Positions 963-6,712 of a stretch of DNA of 64,000 bases are shown piece after piece (the first letter of the stretch is position 1; each line of letters starts with the position of its first letter). Both the position numbers and the translations under genes were made by a program. The notes beneath the pieces were generated by a model that saw nothing but the letters and a program-made list of their open reading frames with translations, was not told the DNA's origin and searched no databases. Source of the DNA: Allostella sp. ATCC 35155 (lineage in GTDB: Bacteria > Pseudomonadota > Alphaproteobacteria > ATCC43930 > Allostellaceae); NCBI GenBank assembly GCA_006738865.1, contig AP019701.1:3592001-3656000 (forward strand), given 5' to 3'.

Positions 963-1011
963 AGTTTTTCTGAACGATCGCCGACCGCCCAACGTCCTTG
1001 GACAGATACGT

Positions 1012-1030
1012 AATGCGTCGCATTCGCATT
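1012..1030. promoter_or_regulatory. Fur-box-like 19-bp palindrome
   Basis: AATGCG and CGCATT form perfect 6-bp arms separated by 7 bp (AATGCGTCGCATTCGCATT). The sequence resembles the 19-bp Fur consensus class AATGMGAATNATTCKCATT and lies 28 bp upstream of the receptor start. Seen: the palindrome and its position. Inferred: binding by Fur and iron repression. An Irr/RirA-type regulator is an alternative in alphaproteobacteria. Confidence 0.5.
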
Positions 1031-1057
1031 CCGTCGCGCATTGGGGGGACCAGAAGC

Positions 1058-3310
1058 ATGACCCGCAACCTTTCCCGCGGCCGTCGCCGGCAGGGCATGA
1101 CCGCCGCCGCCATCGTCGTCTCGACCGCCCTCGGCCTTCCGGCCATGCCGACCGCCCTGGGGCAGCCGACGGCGGCGCCGCTCGAGGCAGGCGCACCGCG
1201 CCCATTCGCCATCCCCCCGCTCCCGCTGGCCGATGCGCTGGCGCGCTTCGGCCGCCAGACCGGCATCCCGGTGTCGGCGCGCGGCGACCTGGTGCGCGGC
1301 CTGAATTCGCCCGGCGCCGTCGGGACGATGGCACCGGAGGCCGCACTGGCCCGCCTCCTCGACGGCACCGGACTGACGTTCCGCCGCGCCGCGGACGGCA
1401 CCCTCCTCATCGCGCCGCAACCGCCGGCCGCCGGCCCGGTCACCGTGCTCGAAGCCGTCCGCATCCAGGGCCGCTCGCCGGGCGACCCCCATGCGGGTGC
1501 CGCGGACCGCGCCCGTTCCATCGAAATCGACCGGGCCGATCTCGAACGGCGCAATCCGTCGAGCCTCAAGGGCGTATTCGCGGGCGAGGCATCGGTGTCC
1601 GTGGGCGGGGCGCAGCCCATGGCCCAGAAGGTCTATGTCCAGGGGGTGGAGGAAACCAACCTCGCGGTCACGATCGACGGCACCCGCCAGACCAACAAGA
1701 TCTTCCACCACAGCACGACCAACCTCATCGACCCTTCCCTCCTCAAGCGGGTCCGCGTCGACCCCGGCGTGGCGCCGGCCGATGCCGGCCCCGGCGCGCT
1801 GGCCGGCGCCATCGCGTACGAAACCGTGTCGGCCGGCGACCTGCTCGCGCCCGGCCGGACCATCGGCGGATTCGCCACCGCCGGCTTCTCCAGCAACGGC
1901 CGGACATTCACCAAGGGCGGCGCCCTCTACGCCCGGGAGAACGGCTTCGAGGGCCTGGGGTATGTCCAGCTCGGCAATGGCAGCGACTATCGCGACGGCA
2001 ACGGCGACAAGGTGAGCGGCACCGGTGCCGACATCGGCGCCTTCCTCGGCAAGGCCGCCTACGAGAGCGGCGGCGGCCATCGCTTCGAGGTTTCGGGCGA
2101 ACAGGTCCAGGACGAGGCGTTCCGCCGCTTCCGCCCGAACATCGGACGCCTGACCAACCGGACGGAAGGCGAGCGCCTCTACGACATGAAGCGGCAGAAC
2201 CTCGCCTTCAACTACAGCATGCCGGGGGCGAGCGGCCTCTGGGATCCCAAGATCGTGCTCGGATATGGGCGAACGCGTCTGCGCGTGCCCGAGCCCTATG
2301 GCAGCGCTGCGGAATCCGCCAGCCTGTCGGGCAAGGCGCAGAACACCTTCCACCTGTCGCCCGGCAACACGGTCACGGTCGGCGTCGACTTCTATGACGA
2401 CAAGGTGCGCTACAAGGATATCGAAGTCCGCTTGCGGGAAACCGCGACCAATATCGGCGCGTTCGCGCAGGCCCGGCTGACTCCGGTCGAGAATCTGCGC
2501 CTGTCGTTCGGCCTGCGCGGCGACCAGCAGTGGTTCAAGGGGGTCGACGGCACCGAGATCGACCAGGCCGGCATCAGCGGCAATGCATCGGCCGCCTACG
2601 ACGTCTTTCGCATCGTGACGCTGAAGGCGGGCTACTCCCGCGTCTTCGGCGGCATCCCGCTCGGCGAAAGCTTCGTCTTCAACCCGAACTGGAACTACCG
2701 CCTCGGCATGAAGGCGGTCGAATCCGAGAACCTGACCGCGGGATTCGAGGTCAACCACGCGGGCTTCACCTTCGGCGCCGGCGTCTTCCGCAGCGATTTC
2801 GAGAACGCCCGCAACGAGAGCTATGGGGGCGGACCGCATCTGACGAGCGATTTCCGGACCCAGGGCTACAACCTCTTCGCCGGCTATCGCTGGGCGTCCG
2901 GCTTCGTCCGCCTGACCTTCACCGACACCGACTTCGAGGTCGCCGGCAAAGCCGGCGATTCCGACGCCGGCCAGTATCTCGGCACGCCGATCGGGCAGAT
3001 CTTCGCACTCGAGGCCGCGCACCGGTTCCAATCGATCGGGCTCGCCGTCGGCGGCACGCTCGACGCCGCACTGGAATATGACGAGTTCGCCGACCAGGGC
3101 CTGCGCAAGCTCGACGGCTATGCGGTGGCCAGCCTCTATGCCGAGTACCAGCCGCCCGCCGCCGAATTCGTGACGCTGCGCGCGGAGGTGAACAACCTCT
3201 TCGACGCCACCTATGCCGACCGCGCCACCTACGGGCAGGAGTTCGCGAACGTCGTGCCGCTGTACGAGCCGGGACGGTCCTTCGTCGTGCGCGCGAAGGT
3301 CACGTTCTGA
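1058..3310 (+). CDS. TonB-dependent outer-membrane receptor with STN domain
   Basis: Outer-membrane gated channel, probably for a ferric siderophore or heme-type ligand. I chose the ATG at 1058 (750 aa) because a GGGGGG tract lies 10 bp upstream, a basic/hydrophobic signal peptide follows (TAAAIVVSTALGLPAM), and the in-frame start at 998 would place the Fur-like palindrome inside the coding region. Domains in order: signal peptide (about 1-40), STN signalling domain (about 50-105, LADALARFGRQTGIPV), TonB-box region TVLEAVRI, plug (about 150-270), 22-strand barrel, terminal aromatic residue F. The STN domain fits transcriptional control through the adjacent FecR-like protein. Wording such as YVQGVEETNLAVTIDG and C-terminal VNNLFDATYADRA is typical of siderophore/heme receptors. 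The substrate cannot be told from sequence. Confidence 0.9.
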   Translation: MTRNLSRGRRRQGMTAAAIVVSTALGLPAMPTALGQPTAAPLEAGAPRPFAIPPLPLADALARFGRQTGIPVSARGDLVRGLNSPGAVGTMAPEAALARLLDGTGLTFRRAADGTLLIAPQPPAAGPVTVLEAVRIQGRSPGDPHAGAADRARSIEIDRADLERRNPSSLKGVFAGEASVSVGGAQPMAQKVYVQGVEETNLAVTIDGTRQTNKIFHHSTTNLIDPSLLKRVRVDPGVAPADAGPGALAGAIAYETVSAGDLLAPGRTIGGFATAGFSSNGRTFTKGGALYARENGFEGLGYVQLGNGSDYRDGNGDKVSGTGADIGAFLGKAAYESGGGHRFEVSGEQVQDEAFRRFRPNIGRLTNRTEGERLYDMKRQNLAFNYSMPGASGLWDPKIVLGYGRTRLRVPEPYGSAAESASLSGKAQNTFHLSPGNTVTVGVDFYDDKVRYKDIEVRLRETATNIGAFAQARLTPVENLRLSFGLRGDQQWFKGVDGTEIDQAGISGNASAAYDVFRIVTLKAGYSRVFGGIPLGESFVFNPNWNYRLGMKAVESENLTAGFEVNHAGFTFGAGVFRSDFENARNESYGGGPHLTSDFRTQGYNLFAGYRWASGFVRLTFTDTDFEVAGKAGDSDAGQYLGTPIGQIFALEAAHRFQSIGLAVGGTLDAALEYDEFADQGLRKLDGYAVASLYAEYQPPAAEFVTLRAEVNNLFDATYADRATYGQEFANVVPLYEPGRSFVVRAKVTF

Positions 3311-3320
3311 CCGCCGGCGC

Positions 3321-4127
3321 TCACCCCATCAGGCTGTCGAGCCCCCGGCGCAGGCCGACCGCCTCGCCGACCCGGCGGGCGGCCAGCAGGGTGCCGGCGA
3401 CGTAGGGAGCGGCGCTGCTGCCGGCGTCGTGGCGGATGACGAGGCGCTCGTCGGGCAGGCCGAAGACCGCCTCGCAGGAGAGGACGAAGGACGGCATCCG
3501 GACCGAATGCACCGGCACCGGGGTGCCCGCCCCGACCTGGGCGCCGCGCGTCGCGCCGAGGCCGGAGAGCTCGGCGACCGGCTTGGCGGTCGGCCGGCGC
3601 TCGACCGCCGACAGCATCTCGGCCAACTCGCGCGCCGTGCCGGAGGGCACGTCGGGCTTGCCGGCCGAGGCGTAGTCGATGACCTCGACGTCCGGGACGT
3701 AGCGCGCCGCCTCCAGCGCGAAGCGGCGCAGCAGCGTCGCGGTGACCGAGAAGTTGCCGGCCGCGAGCACCCCGCGTCCGGCCGCCCGGGCGGCCGCGTC
3801 GATCTCGGCATAGTCGTCGGCGCCCAAGCCCGAGGTGCCGACGACGACGTGGCGGCCGGCGGCGAGCGCCTCCAGCACATGCCCCTTCACATAGGCGGGC
3901 TTGGTGTAGTCGACGACAACGTCCGACGGCGCCGCCAGCGCCTCGGCCAGCGTGGCATGGACCGCGACGCCGAGCGCATTGCCGCCCGCCGCCTCGCCGG
4001 CATCGCGGCCGGCCGCGCCGCGGGCGACCGCGCCCGCCAGCGCCAGATCGGGCGCGGCGGCGATGGCCGGCACGAGGGCGCGGCCGACCCAGCCGGTCGC
4101 GCCGGCGACGACGATGCGGACGGTCAT
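3321..4127 (-). CDS. DapB-like dihydrodipicolinate reductase, atypical active site
   Basis: 268 aa, close to the length of DapB (about 270), the NAD(P)H-dependent 4-hydroxy-tetrahydrodipicolinate reductase of lysine and diaminopimelate synthesis. It has the Rossmann N-terminus (VVAGATGWVGR, 7-16), VVDYT (71-75), VVGTSGL (95-101), NFSVTATLL (125-133) and KPDVPSGTA (157-165). The canonical catalytic pair His-His in EAHHxxKxDxPSGT is replaced by Ala153-Ser154, while the catalytic-loop Lys157 is kept. The start has GGGGAGG upstream and lies 14 bp after the DUF2817 gene, so the two are probably cotranscribed. Either a divergent DapB or a relative acting on another imine or dicarboxylic substrate. 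A longer frame upstream only overlaps the DUF2817 gene. Confidence 0.75.
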   Translation of the reverse strand: MTVRIVVAGATGWVGRALVPAIAAAPDLALAGAVARGAAGRDAGEAAGGNALGVAVHATLAEALAAPSDVVVDYTKPAYVKGHVLEALAAGRHVVVGTSGLGADDYAEIDAAARAAGRGVLAAGNFSVTATLLRRFALEAARYVPDVEVIDYASAGKPDVPSGTARELAEMLSAVERRPTAKPVAELSGLGATRGAQVGAGTPVPVHSVRMPSFVLSCEAVFGLPDERLVIRHDAGSSAAPYVAGTLLAARRVGEAVGLRRGLDSLMG

Positions 4128-4141
4128 GGCGGTCCTCCCCC

Positions 4142-5245
4142 TCAGGCCTGCGCCAGCCCGTCCAGCGTCATGCGGATCGTCTGGCGGCTGCGGAACAGCA
4201 CCGCCTCGCGCCAGTCGTCGGTGTCCGGATAGAAGGCCTTGCGGATCTGCGCCTTGATCGCCTTCGTCTGCGGCGCCTCCCAGTCGGCGTTGGTGTGGGC
4301 GTGCAGCCAGTGGTCGGCCCGGAGCGCCGGCCGGACATGGGTGTCGGACGGATAGGTGCCGTATTCCAGCGCGACGAAGGTGAAGCGCTCGTCGCCCAGC
4401 CGCTCCTCGAGCAGGCGGGCGCAGAAGCCGTGGCGGGCGCCGGCGGTCGAGGTGCCGGCCAGCGGCTCGGTCACCGAATCGCCCCACCAGCGCTTGGCGC
4501 GGGCCGCGGCCTGGGTCTCCGGCAGGTGGACGCAGATGAGTTCGCCGTAGGAATGGGGGCCGAGGCCGGTGTGGTAGTCGATGCAGCCGACATGGCGCCG
4601 CTCGGCCAGGCGATGGTCGTCGGTGATACGGCCGAGGGTCCGGTTCGACCAGGTCGGACCGTTGCCGCCGAAGAAGAGGCCCTTGGGATGCTTGTACTGG
4701 CCGCCGGAGATGGCGACCGACAGCGCCGGCTGGCCCTTCTCCTGGCGGAACGCGGCGATCCGGGCATCGGCCGCCTCGCGCTCGGGCCCTTCGAGGGCCG
4801 GCGGCAGGATGGCGTCGGCAAGTTCGTCGTACCCCGGATTCTCGGGCAGGGGCTTGGCGAAGTCGACGAAGTTGCGGTTGAGGTCGACCCCCTCCTCCGT
4901 CACGCGGCGCACCCAGGCGAAGCCATGCGGGTTGATGGCGTGGACGACCAGGGCGGCGGTGTCCGCCGGCAGCCGGCGGTCGCCCGTCATCCAGTCGATC
5001 TGGCAGCCCGACCCGCAGAAGCCTTCGACCCCGTGGGTGGCGGAGATCAGCATGAGGACGCGGCTTGCATCCTCGGGTCCGATCCAGGCGCAGTCGGTCG
5101 CCAGCGCCTCGCCGCCCGGCCCCCGGTTGGGATTCTCATAGCTGCGGACGGGTGCCCCGATCGCCGCGGCGCTGGCCAGAAAACGGCGGCGGGCGTCGGC
5201 GTAGTCGGCGGAGAAGGCGGTCCGGGCCGCCTCGAGCTCGTTCAT
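4142..5245 (-). CDS. DUF2817 (M14-like zinc carboxypeptidase/amidohydrolase) protein
   Basis: 367 aa with a perfect AGGAGG ribosome-binding site ending 6 bp before the ATG, which decides the start over a longer frame. The protein matches the DUF2817 family, related to M14 zinc carboxypeptidases: zinc-ligand motif HGVE (His71, Glu74), NLNRNF-type DLNRNFVDF, and DYHTGLG carrying the probable third zinc ligand. No signal peptide is visible, so it should act in the cytoplasm on small amides or peptides. It is the first gene of a two-gene unit with the DapB-like reductase, suggesting that the product of one feeds the other. Substrate unknown; family function is largely uncharacterised. Confidence 0.75.
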   Translation of the reverse strand: MNELEAARTAFSADYADARRRFLASAAAIGAPVRSYENPNRGPGGEALATDCAWIGPEDASRVLMLISATHGVEGFCGSGCQIDWMTGDRRLPADTAALVVHAINPHGFAWVRRVTEEGVDLNRNFVDFAKPLPENPGYDELADAILPPALEGPEREAADARIAAFRQEKGQPALSVAISGGQYKHPKGLFFGGNGPTWSNRTLGRITDDHRLAERRHVGCIDYHTGLGPHSYGELICVHLPETQAAARAKRWWGDSVTEPLAGTSTAGARHGFCARLLEERLGDERFTFVALEYGTYPSDTHVRPALRADHWLHAHTNADWEAPQTKAIKAQIRKAFYPDTDDWREAVLFRSRQTIRMTLDGLAQA

Positions 5246-5341
5246 GGGATCCTCCTGACAGGACCGCCTAGGTAGCGCACCAGCGCGGCGATTGACCACC
5301 CCGCCTTGCAGGGGGCGGCGCGCGCGGCTATCTCAGCACGG

Positions 5342-6712
5342 ATGATCCACTCCGATACGGCCCGCCCCCGACCGGTTCATGTCGTCGGCGGCGGCCTCGC
5401 CGGCAGCGAAGCTGCTTGGCAGATTGCCCGCGCGGGCGTTCCCGTGATCCTGCACGAGATGCGGCCGGTCCGTCCGACCGACGCCCACCAGACCGACGCG
5501 CTGGCCGAGTTGGTCTGCTCCAACTCCTTCCGTTCCGACGATGCGGTGAACAATGCGGTCGGCCTGCTGCATGCCGAAATGCGCCGGGCCGGCAGCCTGA
5601 TCCTGGCCGCCGCCGACGCGCACAAGGTGCCGGCGGGCGGCGCGCTCGCGGTCGACCGGACCGGCTTTTCCGCCGCGGTGCAGTCGGCGCTCGAAGCCGA
5701 GCCGCTGGTCGAGATCGTCCGCGGGGAAGTGACCGACCTGCCGCCCGAGGAGTGGGGTTCGACCATCGTTGCGACCGGCCCCCTCACCTCGCCCGCGCTG
5801 GCGGAAGCGGTGCGGCAGCTGACCGGCGAGGAATCGCTCGCCTTCTTCGATGCCATCGCGCCCATCGTCCACAAGGATTCGATCGACTTCGAAACCGCCT
5901 GGTTCCAGTCGCGCTACGACAAGCCGGGCCCCGGCGGCGACGGCAGCGACTATATCAACTGCCCGCTCGACGCCGACCAGTACCGGGCCTTCGTCGCCGC
6001 CCTCCTTGCCGGCGAGAAGACCGAGTTCAAGGAGTGGGAGGCGAACACGCCCTATTTCGAGGGCTGCCTGCCGATCGAGGTCATGGCGTCGCGCGGCATC
6101 GACACGCTGCGCTACGGGCCGATGAAGCCGGTCGGCCTGCGCGATCCGCGCACCGGCCACCGGCCCCATGCCGTCGTCCAGCTGCGCCAGGACAATGCGC
6201 TGGGCACGCTCTACAACATCGTCGGCTTCCAGACGAAGCTGCGCCATGGCGAGCAGGCGCGGATCTTCCGCATGATCCCGGGGCTGGAGAAGGCCGAGTT
6301 CGCGCGGCTGGGCGGGCTGCACCGCAACACCTTCCTCAACAGCCCGCGGCTCCTCGACGGCACGCTGCGCCTGAAGCCGCGGCCGCAACTGCGCTTTGCC
6401 GGCCAGGTGACCGGCGTCGAGGGCTATGTCGAGAGCGCGGCGATCGGCCTGCTCGCCGGCCGCTTCGCCGCCGCCGAAGAGCGCGGCGGGCAGCCGGTCG
6501 CGCCGCCCCCGACCACGGCCTTCGGCGCACTGCTGGCGCACATCACCGGCGGCGCCGCGGCCGAGACGTTCCAGCCCATGAACGTCAATTTCGGCCTCTT
6601 CCCGCCGCTCGACGCGAGCGTGCGCAAGAACGAGCGAAAACCGGCATTGTCCCGCCGGGCGCTCGCCGACCTCGACCGGTGGTTGGGCATGAAAGTGGAC
6701 GAGGCCGCCTGA
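5342..6712 (+). CDS. trmFO: Methylenetetrahydrofolate-tRNA-(uracil-54-C5)-methyltransferase
   Basis: Flavoprotein that methylates U54 of the tRNA T-loop using methylene-tetrahydrofolate and FADH2. 456 aa from the ATG at 5342, in the usual family range; an upstream in-frame start adds 12 residues with no ribosome-binding site. Seen: the FAD-binding [19 protein letters not shown] (about 11-29), HEMRP, the TrmFO signature [49 protein letters not shown] and the C-terminal [10 protein letters not shown]. Divergent from the DUF2817 gene across 96 bp; the CorC-like gene follows 10 bp downstream, probably cotranscribed. Confidence 0.95.

Follow-up and report, generated by a model that had tools for sequence, protein, structure and literature searches.

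What does a protein with the fold of a lysine-biosynthetic reductase do once the catalytic histidines of that enzyme are gone, and does the gene beside it take part? The question is raised by P0001, a reductase of the DapB clade encoded at 3321–4127 (minus strand, stop codon included; 268 residues) in the window, a 64,000-nucleotide stretch of Allostella sp. ATCC 35155 (contig AP019701.1, positions 3,592,001 to 3,656,000). It was recognized from profiles, a structural model and Protein Data Bank (PDB) matches as a relative of DapB, the 4-hydroxy-tetrahydrodipicolinate (HTPA) reductase, and its neighbour encodes a DUF2817 protein. A role in lysine catabolism is our best reading, held with moderate confidence. 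The more specific proposal drawn from sequence, that P0001 is an NADPH-dependent cyclic-imino-acid reductase, most likely forming L-pipecolate from delta1-piperideine-2-carboxylate (P2C), is tentative: plausible, though short of probable.

A widespread clade without the catalytic histidines

P0001 matches both DapB domains (DapB_N, PF01113, 85 bits; DapB_C, PF05173, 58 bits) and scores 152 bits with the dapB equivalog model TIGR00036, above its cut-off of 122. Its DapB motif reads DYASAGKPDVPSGT, and the altered substrate-site motif, encoded by the codons of residues 151–165 (DYASAGKPDVPSGTA; 3633–3677, minus strand), was located by the clade motif and by alignment with DapB of E. coli K-12. 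In that alignment H159 corresponds to A153, H160 to S154, K163 to K157 and S168-G169-T170 to S162-G163-T164, which bears out an earlier note on this DNA, in which Ala153-Ser154 had been seen in place of the His-His of DapB, with Lys157 and PSGT retained. According to passages of PMC11489326, the general acid proposed for E. coli DapB is His159; His160 touches the carboxylate at C2, and Lys163 polarises the imine nitrogen of the ring.

Proteins of the same type were found in 3 of the 41 genomes made up of the strain's own and 40 relatives, namely its own, G001 (89%) and G008 (67%). A contig scan, biased to close relatives by its reliance on two peptide patterns, yielded 76 related loci, mostly from Hyphomicrobiales (Microvirga, Bosea, Phreatobacter, Aminobacter and Pleomorphomonas); the remainder came from a few Rhodospirillales, three Actinomycetota and one Chloroflexi. 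A clade gene is carried by 18 of 289 genomes in a sample of the window's class, Alphaproteobacteria, and Pantoea, Mucilaginibacter and Persicobacter have more distant copies on plasmids. Among viruses, 63 stretches fitted a pattern and none encoded a relative.

The motif survey covered 78 clade rows, one of which (L112) stops before the motif. For the tree and the residue counts 80 rows were kept, comprising 71 from the clade, 8 of 18 canonical proteins and E. coli DapB; the 32 Microvirga rows were thinned to five plus L054 and L064, and L112 (<200 residues) was excluded. Long branches part the clade from the canonical proteins with a support of 100/100, and the window copy groups with that of G001 within the clade (100/99). 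The Pantoea, Mucilaginibacter and Persicobacter rows themselves have long branches, and three basal rows are weakly placed.

Position 159 (E. coli numbering) is alanine in 68 clade rows, cysteine in two and serine in one, and histidine in 0 of 71, whereas His159 is present in all eight canonical relatives and in E. coli; the loss is beyond chance. Position 160 is more variable (Ser 52, Lys 10, Gly 7, Ala 1), with a single histidine in the Mucilaginibacter copy. Lys163 is kept in 71/71 rows, as are the Pro, Ser and Gly of the PSGT loop, its Thr being kept in 70/71, and the consensus motif of the clade is E[IV]xDYASxxKxDxPSGT. Loss of the histidines marks a widespread clade and is not a local mutation. 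The nucleotide-loop glycines and the cofactor-site arginine are conserved almost without exception. An equivalent of Arg39 is present in all 70 clade rows with a letter there, and the equivalent of E38 is never acidic, which, by comparison with E. coli DapB, points to NADPH as the cofactor.

An AlphaFold2 model of the window protein, built with 31 clade sequences, reached a pLDDT of 90.1 and a pTM of 0.85. The best VIA-align match to this predicted model was M. tuberculosis DapB with 2,6-pyridinedicarboxylate (Z 30.1, root-mean-square deviation (rmsd) 2.0 over 242 residues), and the ternary complex of E. coli DapB also matched closely (Z 27.5, rmsd 2.1, 242 residues). Amine dehydrogenases (Z ~20–22) and meso-diaminopimelate (DAP) or D-amino-acid dehydrogenases (~17.5–19.4) ranked below DapB. 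As far as a predicted model can show it, the reductase has the DapB fold.

Two individual loci deserve mention. On the Mucilaginibacter plasmid (L182, 6303–8538) a helix-turn-helix regulator gene, the clade gene (overlapping by 4 bp, annotated dapB and keeping His160 only) and a drug/metabolite transporter gene stand in a row. At G004:C36:21950-23445 (L027) two DapB-type matches are adjacent, with a third elsewhere in that genome; by score they fall outside the histidine-less clade.

Lysine-catabolic genes around the clade and in its carriers

Genes for L-piperidine-6-carboxylate dehydrogenase (Pcd), a putative glutaryl-CoA dehydrogenase (GcdH) or a putative succinate-glutarate CoA-transferase (SugCT) were found within 3 kb of the reductase in 40 of the 76 loci, that is, in 32/32 from Microvirga and 8/44 others; full 3-kb flanks were available in 67 loci and lacking in 9. 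Pcd passes its NCBIfam equivalog model (818 bits, cut-off 730). For the CoA-transferase the top NCBIfam match is succinate-glutarate CoA-transferase, at 623 bits and under the cut-off of 750. GcdH reaches no NCBIfam cut-off (best 249 against 600 bits); its matches among solved structures include several named glutaryl-CoA dehydrogenase (E 1e-171 to 1e-191), ranked after a chain named only acyl-CoA dehydrogenase. A thiamine diphosphate (TPP) enzyme found at some of these loci passes only a subfamily model. Names given by eye are those of the LysR, RTX, TrmFO, TonB-receptor and FecR genes, of a transporter in G008 and of most neighbours in some of the neighbourhoods.

The gene order differs between lineages. 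Most Microvirga have GcdH-reductase-SugCT with a divergent LysR-type gene, and Microvirga massiliensis has Pcd-GcdH, one gene on the opposite strand, and then reductase-SugCT-TPP enzyme. Four Pleomorphomonas and a soil metagenome-assembled genome (MAG) share the order Pcd-reductase-TPP enzyme, with 7–8 bases between the Pcd match and that of the reductase, and an Alsobacter MAG has Pcd-reductase-GcdH-SugCT. Lysine-linked rows make up 8 of 9 in the starred Microvirga/Rhizobiaceae group of the tree and 6 of 8 in the starred Pleomorphomonas/Alsobacter group, together with one row of unresolved placement.

Further genes were sought in subsets of the carriers (15 genomes for Ldh_2, 18 for a gene resembling lysine or saccharopine dehydrogenase (LysDH/SDH-like), 18 for AmaA-type oxidases, 19 for DAO-family oxidases, and 27 for a second DapB and for Pcd in carriers reached via their loci). 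Of the class-sample genomes, 13/18 carriers and 57/271 non-carriers have Pcd (raw counts, which ignore kinship and genome size), and it is present in 22/27 carriers reached via loci. A strong relative of a DAO-family oxidase using flavin adenine dinucleotide (FAD) was found in 17/19 carriers, and in 9 of these 17 it lies at most 2.1 kb from Pcd (G041, G042, G044, G048, G049, G051, G057, G063 and G066); with weak scores to sarcosine-oxidase-type models, it is not assigned as a pipecolate oxidase. The Aminobacter oxidase beside Pcd scores best with the L-pipecolate oxidase AmaA, at 443 bits and below the cut-off of 600, and relatives of it were found at E 1e-60 in 12/18 carriers. A gene of the Ldh_2 family (PF02615), which we take to be that of the DpkA-type reductase of P2C and delta1-pyrroline-2-carboxylate (Pyr2C) in Pseudomonas putida, is absent from 4/15 carriers: two Pleomorphomonas (2/2 genomes) and two Virgisporangium.

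Of the lysine genes sought in the strain's own genome (a search that did not extend to GcdH), Pcd, a LysDH-like gene and a DAO relative are present, each far from the reductase, and the window copy is linked to none of them.

Several further genes adjoin individual copies. A Bcr/CflA transporter gene lies ~2.2 kb upstream in 30 Microvirga loci, beyond the LysR gene. In the Rhodospirillales HOG25 (L005, 341–1504 and 1501 onward; the same contig as L105) the clade gene starts within a major facilitator gene that looks Bcr/CflA-like by eye, with an overlap of 4 bp. Such a transporter was considered as a partner of the reductase and set aside as a curiosity. An aminotransferase-type gene, also named by eye, adjoins four copies (L167, L173, L178 and L179) and is divergent.

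The proposed reaction and its alternatives

We propose that the clade derives from DapB and was recruited out of lysine synthesis into lysine breakdown, where its substrate would be a cyclic imino acid with a six-membered ring and a single carboxylate, reduced at the expense of NADPH. The imine nitrogen and the one carboxylate left would be held by the retained lysine and the PSGT loop. Loss of both histidines alongside retention of the lysine and the loop would fit a one-carboxylate ring imine reduced at C=N: His160, whose contact in DapB is with the C2 carboxylate, would be dispensable for a monocarboxylate, and His159 would be so if the hydride went straight to the C=N carbon with no carbon protonated, given the hydride position that we assume for DapB. 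The best guess is reduction of P2C to L-pipecolate, since P2C is the ring compound on the known route from D-lysine to L-pipecolate (outlined in passages of PMC6034422). An FAD oxidase and Pcd would then carry L-pipecolate on to 2-aminoadipate, and SugCT, acting on glutarate, and GcdH would complete the route. The clade, its residues and predicted fold, the coexistence with a second DapB and the gene linkage in certain other bacteria are observed; the cofactor, the substrate (from gene context and site residues), the direction of the reaction and the sharing of this role by the window copy are what we infer. That an entire, so far overlooked family of DapB-derived, NADPH-dependent cyclic-imine reductases, annotated 'dapB', has moved into lysine degradation, shedding a general acid that direct C=N reduction would not require, and forms L-pipecolate from P2C with no DpkA-type enzyme involved is conceivable but rather doubtful.

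Several observations weigh against this proposal. No Pcd, GcdH or SugCT gene lies within 3 kb in 36 of the 76 loci, which have differing neighbours and include 10/10 Bosea, 4/4 Aminobacter, 3/3 actinobacterial loci and the Chloroflexi row. None of 19 further stretches (16 from the class sample and 3 from plasmids; L166 repeats L103) has a lysine-catabolic neighbour, a result that lowers our confidence in the proposal and in the wider family reading and raises that in a stand-alone enzyme. In the window's genome Pcd lies 289 kb from the reductase, and Pcd is missing in 5/18 class-sample carriers and in G008. In Pleomorphomonas the DAO relative is far from Pcd, and an AmaA-type relative is absent at E 1e-60 in 6/18 carriers, both Pleomorphomonas included. 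Ldh_2 genes are present in 11/15 carriers, which proves little because the family is broad. A LysDH/SDH-like match (PF16653 + PF03435) was found in 0/4 genomes whose Pcd cluster contains the reductase (G044, G055, G056 and G059), a pattern that would also fit a reductase standing in for a lysine dehydrogenase.

This last pattern would suit a different reaction in the same pathway: the enzyme might interconvert delta1-piperideine-6-carboxylate (P6C, aminoadipate semialdehyde) and pipecolate, or it might be a lysine dehydrogenase that works with NADP and supplies Pcd with P6C. The LysDH/SDH-like gene has a strong match in 10/14 other carriers and precedes Pcd in three other Microvirga loci, and NADP amine dehydrogenases share the predicted fold (Z about 20–22). 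However, both genes occur together in 10/18 genomes, the four Pcd-cluster genomes represent three genera only, and the DapB lysine and PSGT loop of the clade would suit a bound cyclic imine; we regard this reading as unlikely. Hardly less unlikely is a reductase that stands alone, has often been transferred and acts on some other substrate, serving detoxification or metabolite repair and only sometimes lysine breakdown. Its scattered occurrence in Pseudomonadota, Actinomycetota, Chloroflexota and Bacteroidota, the plasmid copies of Pantoea and Mucilaginibacter, the mixed neighbours, the transporter genes adjoining some copies and the 19 unlinked stretches all speak for it; against it stands the lysine linkage, which recurs in two well-supported groups of the tree and in more than one gene order.

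Far less probable is a second HTPA reductase for the synthesis of lysine and DAP. The DapB fold and the TIGR00036 score would suit one, and in three genomes (G058, G064 and G065) the clade gene is the only DapB_C match, but all three are metagenome-assembled, and His159 is gone from 71/71 clade rows and His160 from 70/71. The earlier note had suggested looking for a second, canonical dapB, and one is present in the strain's own genome (about G000:C1:374208-375032, minus strand; motif MHHRHKVDAPSGT). A second strong DapB_C match (>100 bits) is likewise found in 24/27 carrier genomes, deemed canonical by score and not by reading the motifs; these 27 are a subset of the 76 locus genomes picked for spread, G058 being G095 of the class sample. 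The view that the gene serves not lysine synthesis but perhaps catabolism, put forward before these searches, gains support because a canonical dapB is present, the clade has no histidines and many neighbours are lysine- or glutarate-catabolic. The loss of the general acid might also suggest a DapB-like protein that is catalytically dead and serves in binding or regulation, but the near-constant conservation of the lysine, the PSGT loop, the nucleotide-loop glycines and the cofactor-site arginine makes this the least credible of the readings.

The neighbouring DUF2817 gene (P0002; 4142–5245, minus strand; 367 residues; PF10994, 393 bits) bears on the second half of our question. Purine-rich sites stand ahead of both start codons (AGGAGGATCCC-ATG and GGGGGAGGACCGCC-ATG); that of the reductase lies in the 14-bp spacer between the genes (4128–4141, minus strand), and the DUF2817 gene has an AGGAGG ribosome-binding site at 5246–5256 (minus strand). 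The short gap and good ribosome-binding sites noted previously were thus confirmed. P0002 resembles M14 carboxypeptidases in its H71-x-x-E74, H225, E294 and DLNRN residues, and H71, E74, H225, E294 and D121-L-N123-R124-N125 are invariant in 7/7 aligned DUF2817 sequences; by analogy with M14 enzymes as we remember them, these are presumably the zinc ligands (HxxE...H), the catalytic Glu and a carboxylate-binding N-R pair. Alignment with E. coli MpaA by hhalign gave a probability of 85% over 76 columns, and a PDB profile search reached carboxypeptidase N and MpaA only at E 0.2–0.3, amid chance matches. In its residues the protein looks like an M14-type zinc carboxypeptidase.

The same note had suggested that this hydrolase releases a product used by the reductase, the pair forming a small pathway, and had asked how often the two are neighbours. 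The genes are co-directional and closely spaced, the likeness to M14 peptidases would fit, and a DUF2817 gene is also close to the reductase in G001, there with one gene (RTX-like by eye) between them. Beyond these two genomes, however, no DUF2817 gene was found near the reductase in any of the 76 related loci or 19 further stretches. In the congener G003 a syntenic site (L031, 1–4020, against window 998–6712) holds the TonB receptor (73% identical over 459 residues), DUF2817 (91%) and trmFO genes; the first two lie 64 bp apart, and the reductase is missing. Congeners thus differ naturally by one gene here, the reductase being present in some and absent in others. DUF2817 occurs without a clade gene in G002, G003, G011, G030, G031 and G039, and on a different contig in G008; it is multicopy in the strain's own genome, with four matches. 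A conserved DUF2817-reductase unit was rejected on the counts and the reductase-free G003 site, and a joint pathway is very improbable. P0002 is probably not a functional partner; the closeness of the two genes looks like a local accident, and co-transcription in the window is possible but would be recent.

Other DUF2817 copies were met in passing. A tandem pair lies at G000:C1:2310600-2312847, and a partial match with an in-frame TGA at G001:C1:778109-778363 is probably a decayed copy. On a Lichenicola plasmid (L184, 4977–10320) DUF2817 comes first in a set with aspartate/glutamate racemase, amidohydrolase and amino-acid ATP-binding cassette (ABC) transporter genes, a hint to its function. 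On the other side of the reductase, and convergent with it, a FecR-like protein (6–962) and a TonB-dependent receptor (998–3310) form an ordinary uptake pair.

Annotation and known systems

The three clade proteins scanned exceed the NCBIfam dapB equivalog cut-off (152, 143 and 147 against 122 bits). Two plasmid copies also bear a dapB annotation, yet none of these proteins retains the general-acid histidine. If these are lysine-catabolic imine reductases, a systematic mis-annotation as dapB would be corrected, carriers without Ldh_2, such as Pleomorphomonas, would gain a candidate for the P2C reductase step, and the clade would offer a clean test of conserved active-site remodelling when a biosynthetic enzyme turns catabolic. 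In the literature searched, no paper joins 'DUF2817' with 'dihydrodipicolinate reductase', DUF2817 being met only on another subject, and 'piperideine-2-carboxylate reductase' and 'dihydrodipicolinate reductase' never appear together. Titles and the opening parts of abstracts mention no histidine-less DapB in lysine catabolism.

The clade would resemble the DpkA-type P2C/Pyr2C reductase of P. putida in the proposed reaction and in NADPH use, the P. putida P2C reductase being reportedly NADPH-dependent, to judge by a title among the references of PMC6034422. P0001 nevertheless belongs to another protein family: among its Pfam matches up to E = 1 there is none to Ldh_2. NADP-dependent amine and meso-DAP dehydrogenases (6g1m, 6iau and 8hp0) are similar to the predicted model in overall fold (Z about 17.5–22), but they are only 12–20% identical over the aligned parts, mostly have longer chains, and score below DapB. 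In the 4-carboxy-2-hydroxymuconate semialdehyde (CHMS) dehydrogenase PmdC/LigC, the histidine site was likened by its authors to the motif of dihydrodipicolinate reductase (DHDPR) in passages of PMC11489326; by that description, and not by sequence comparison, PmdC/LigC keeps the catalytic histidines that the clade loses. The closest likeness is to DapB itself (TIGR00036; PF01113 + PF05173), with which the clade shares the fold, the Rossmann loop, the lysine and the PSGT loop. It differs from DapB in having DYAS instead of EMHH/EAHH, Trp for Arg16 in 66/71 rows and a replaced Arg240, and in standing on a separate long branch, beside a second DapB in most carriers and next to lysine-catabolic genes at just over half of its scanned loci.

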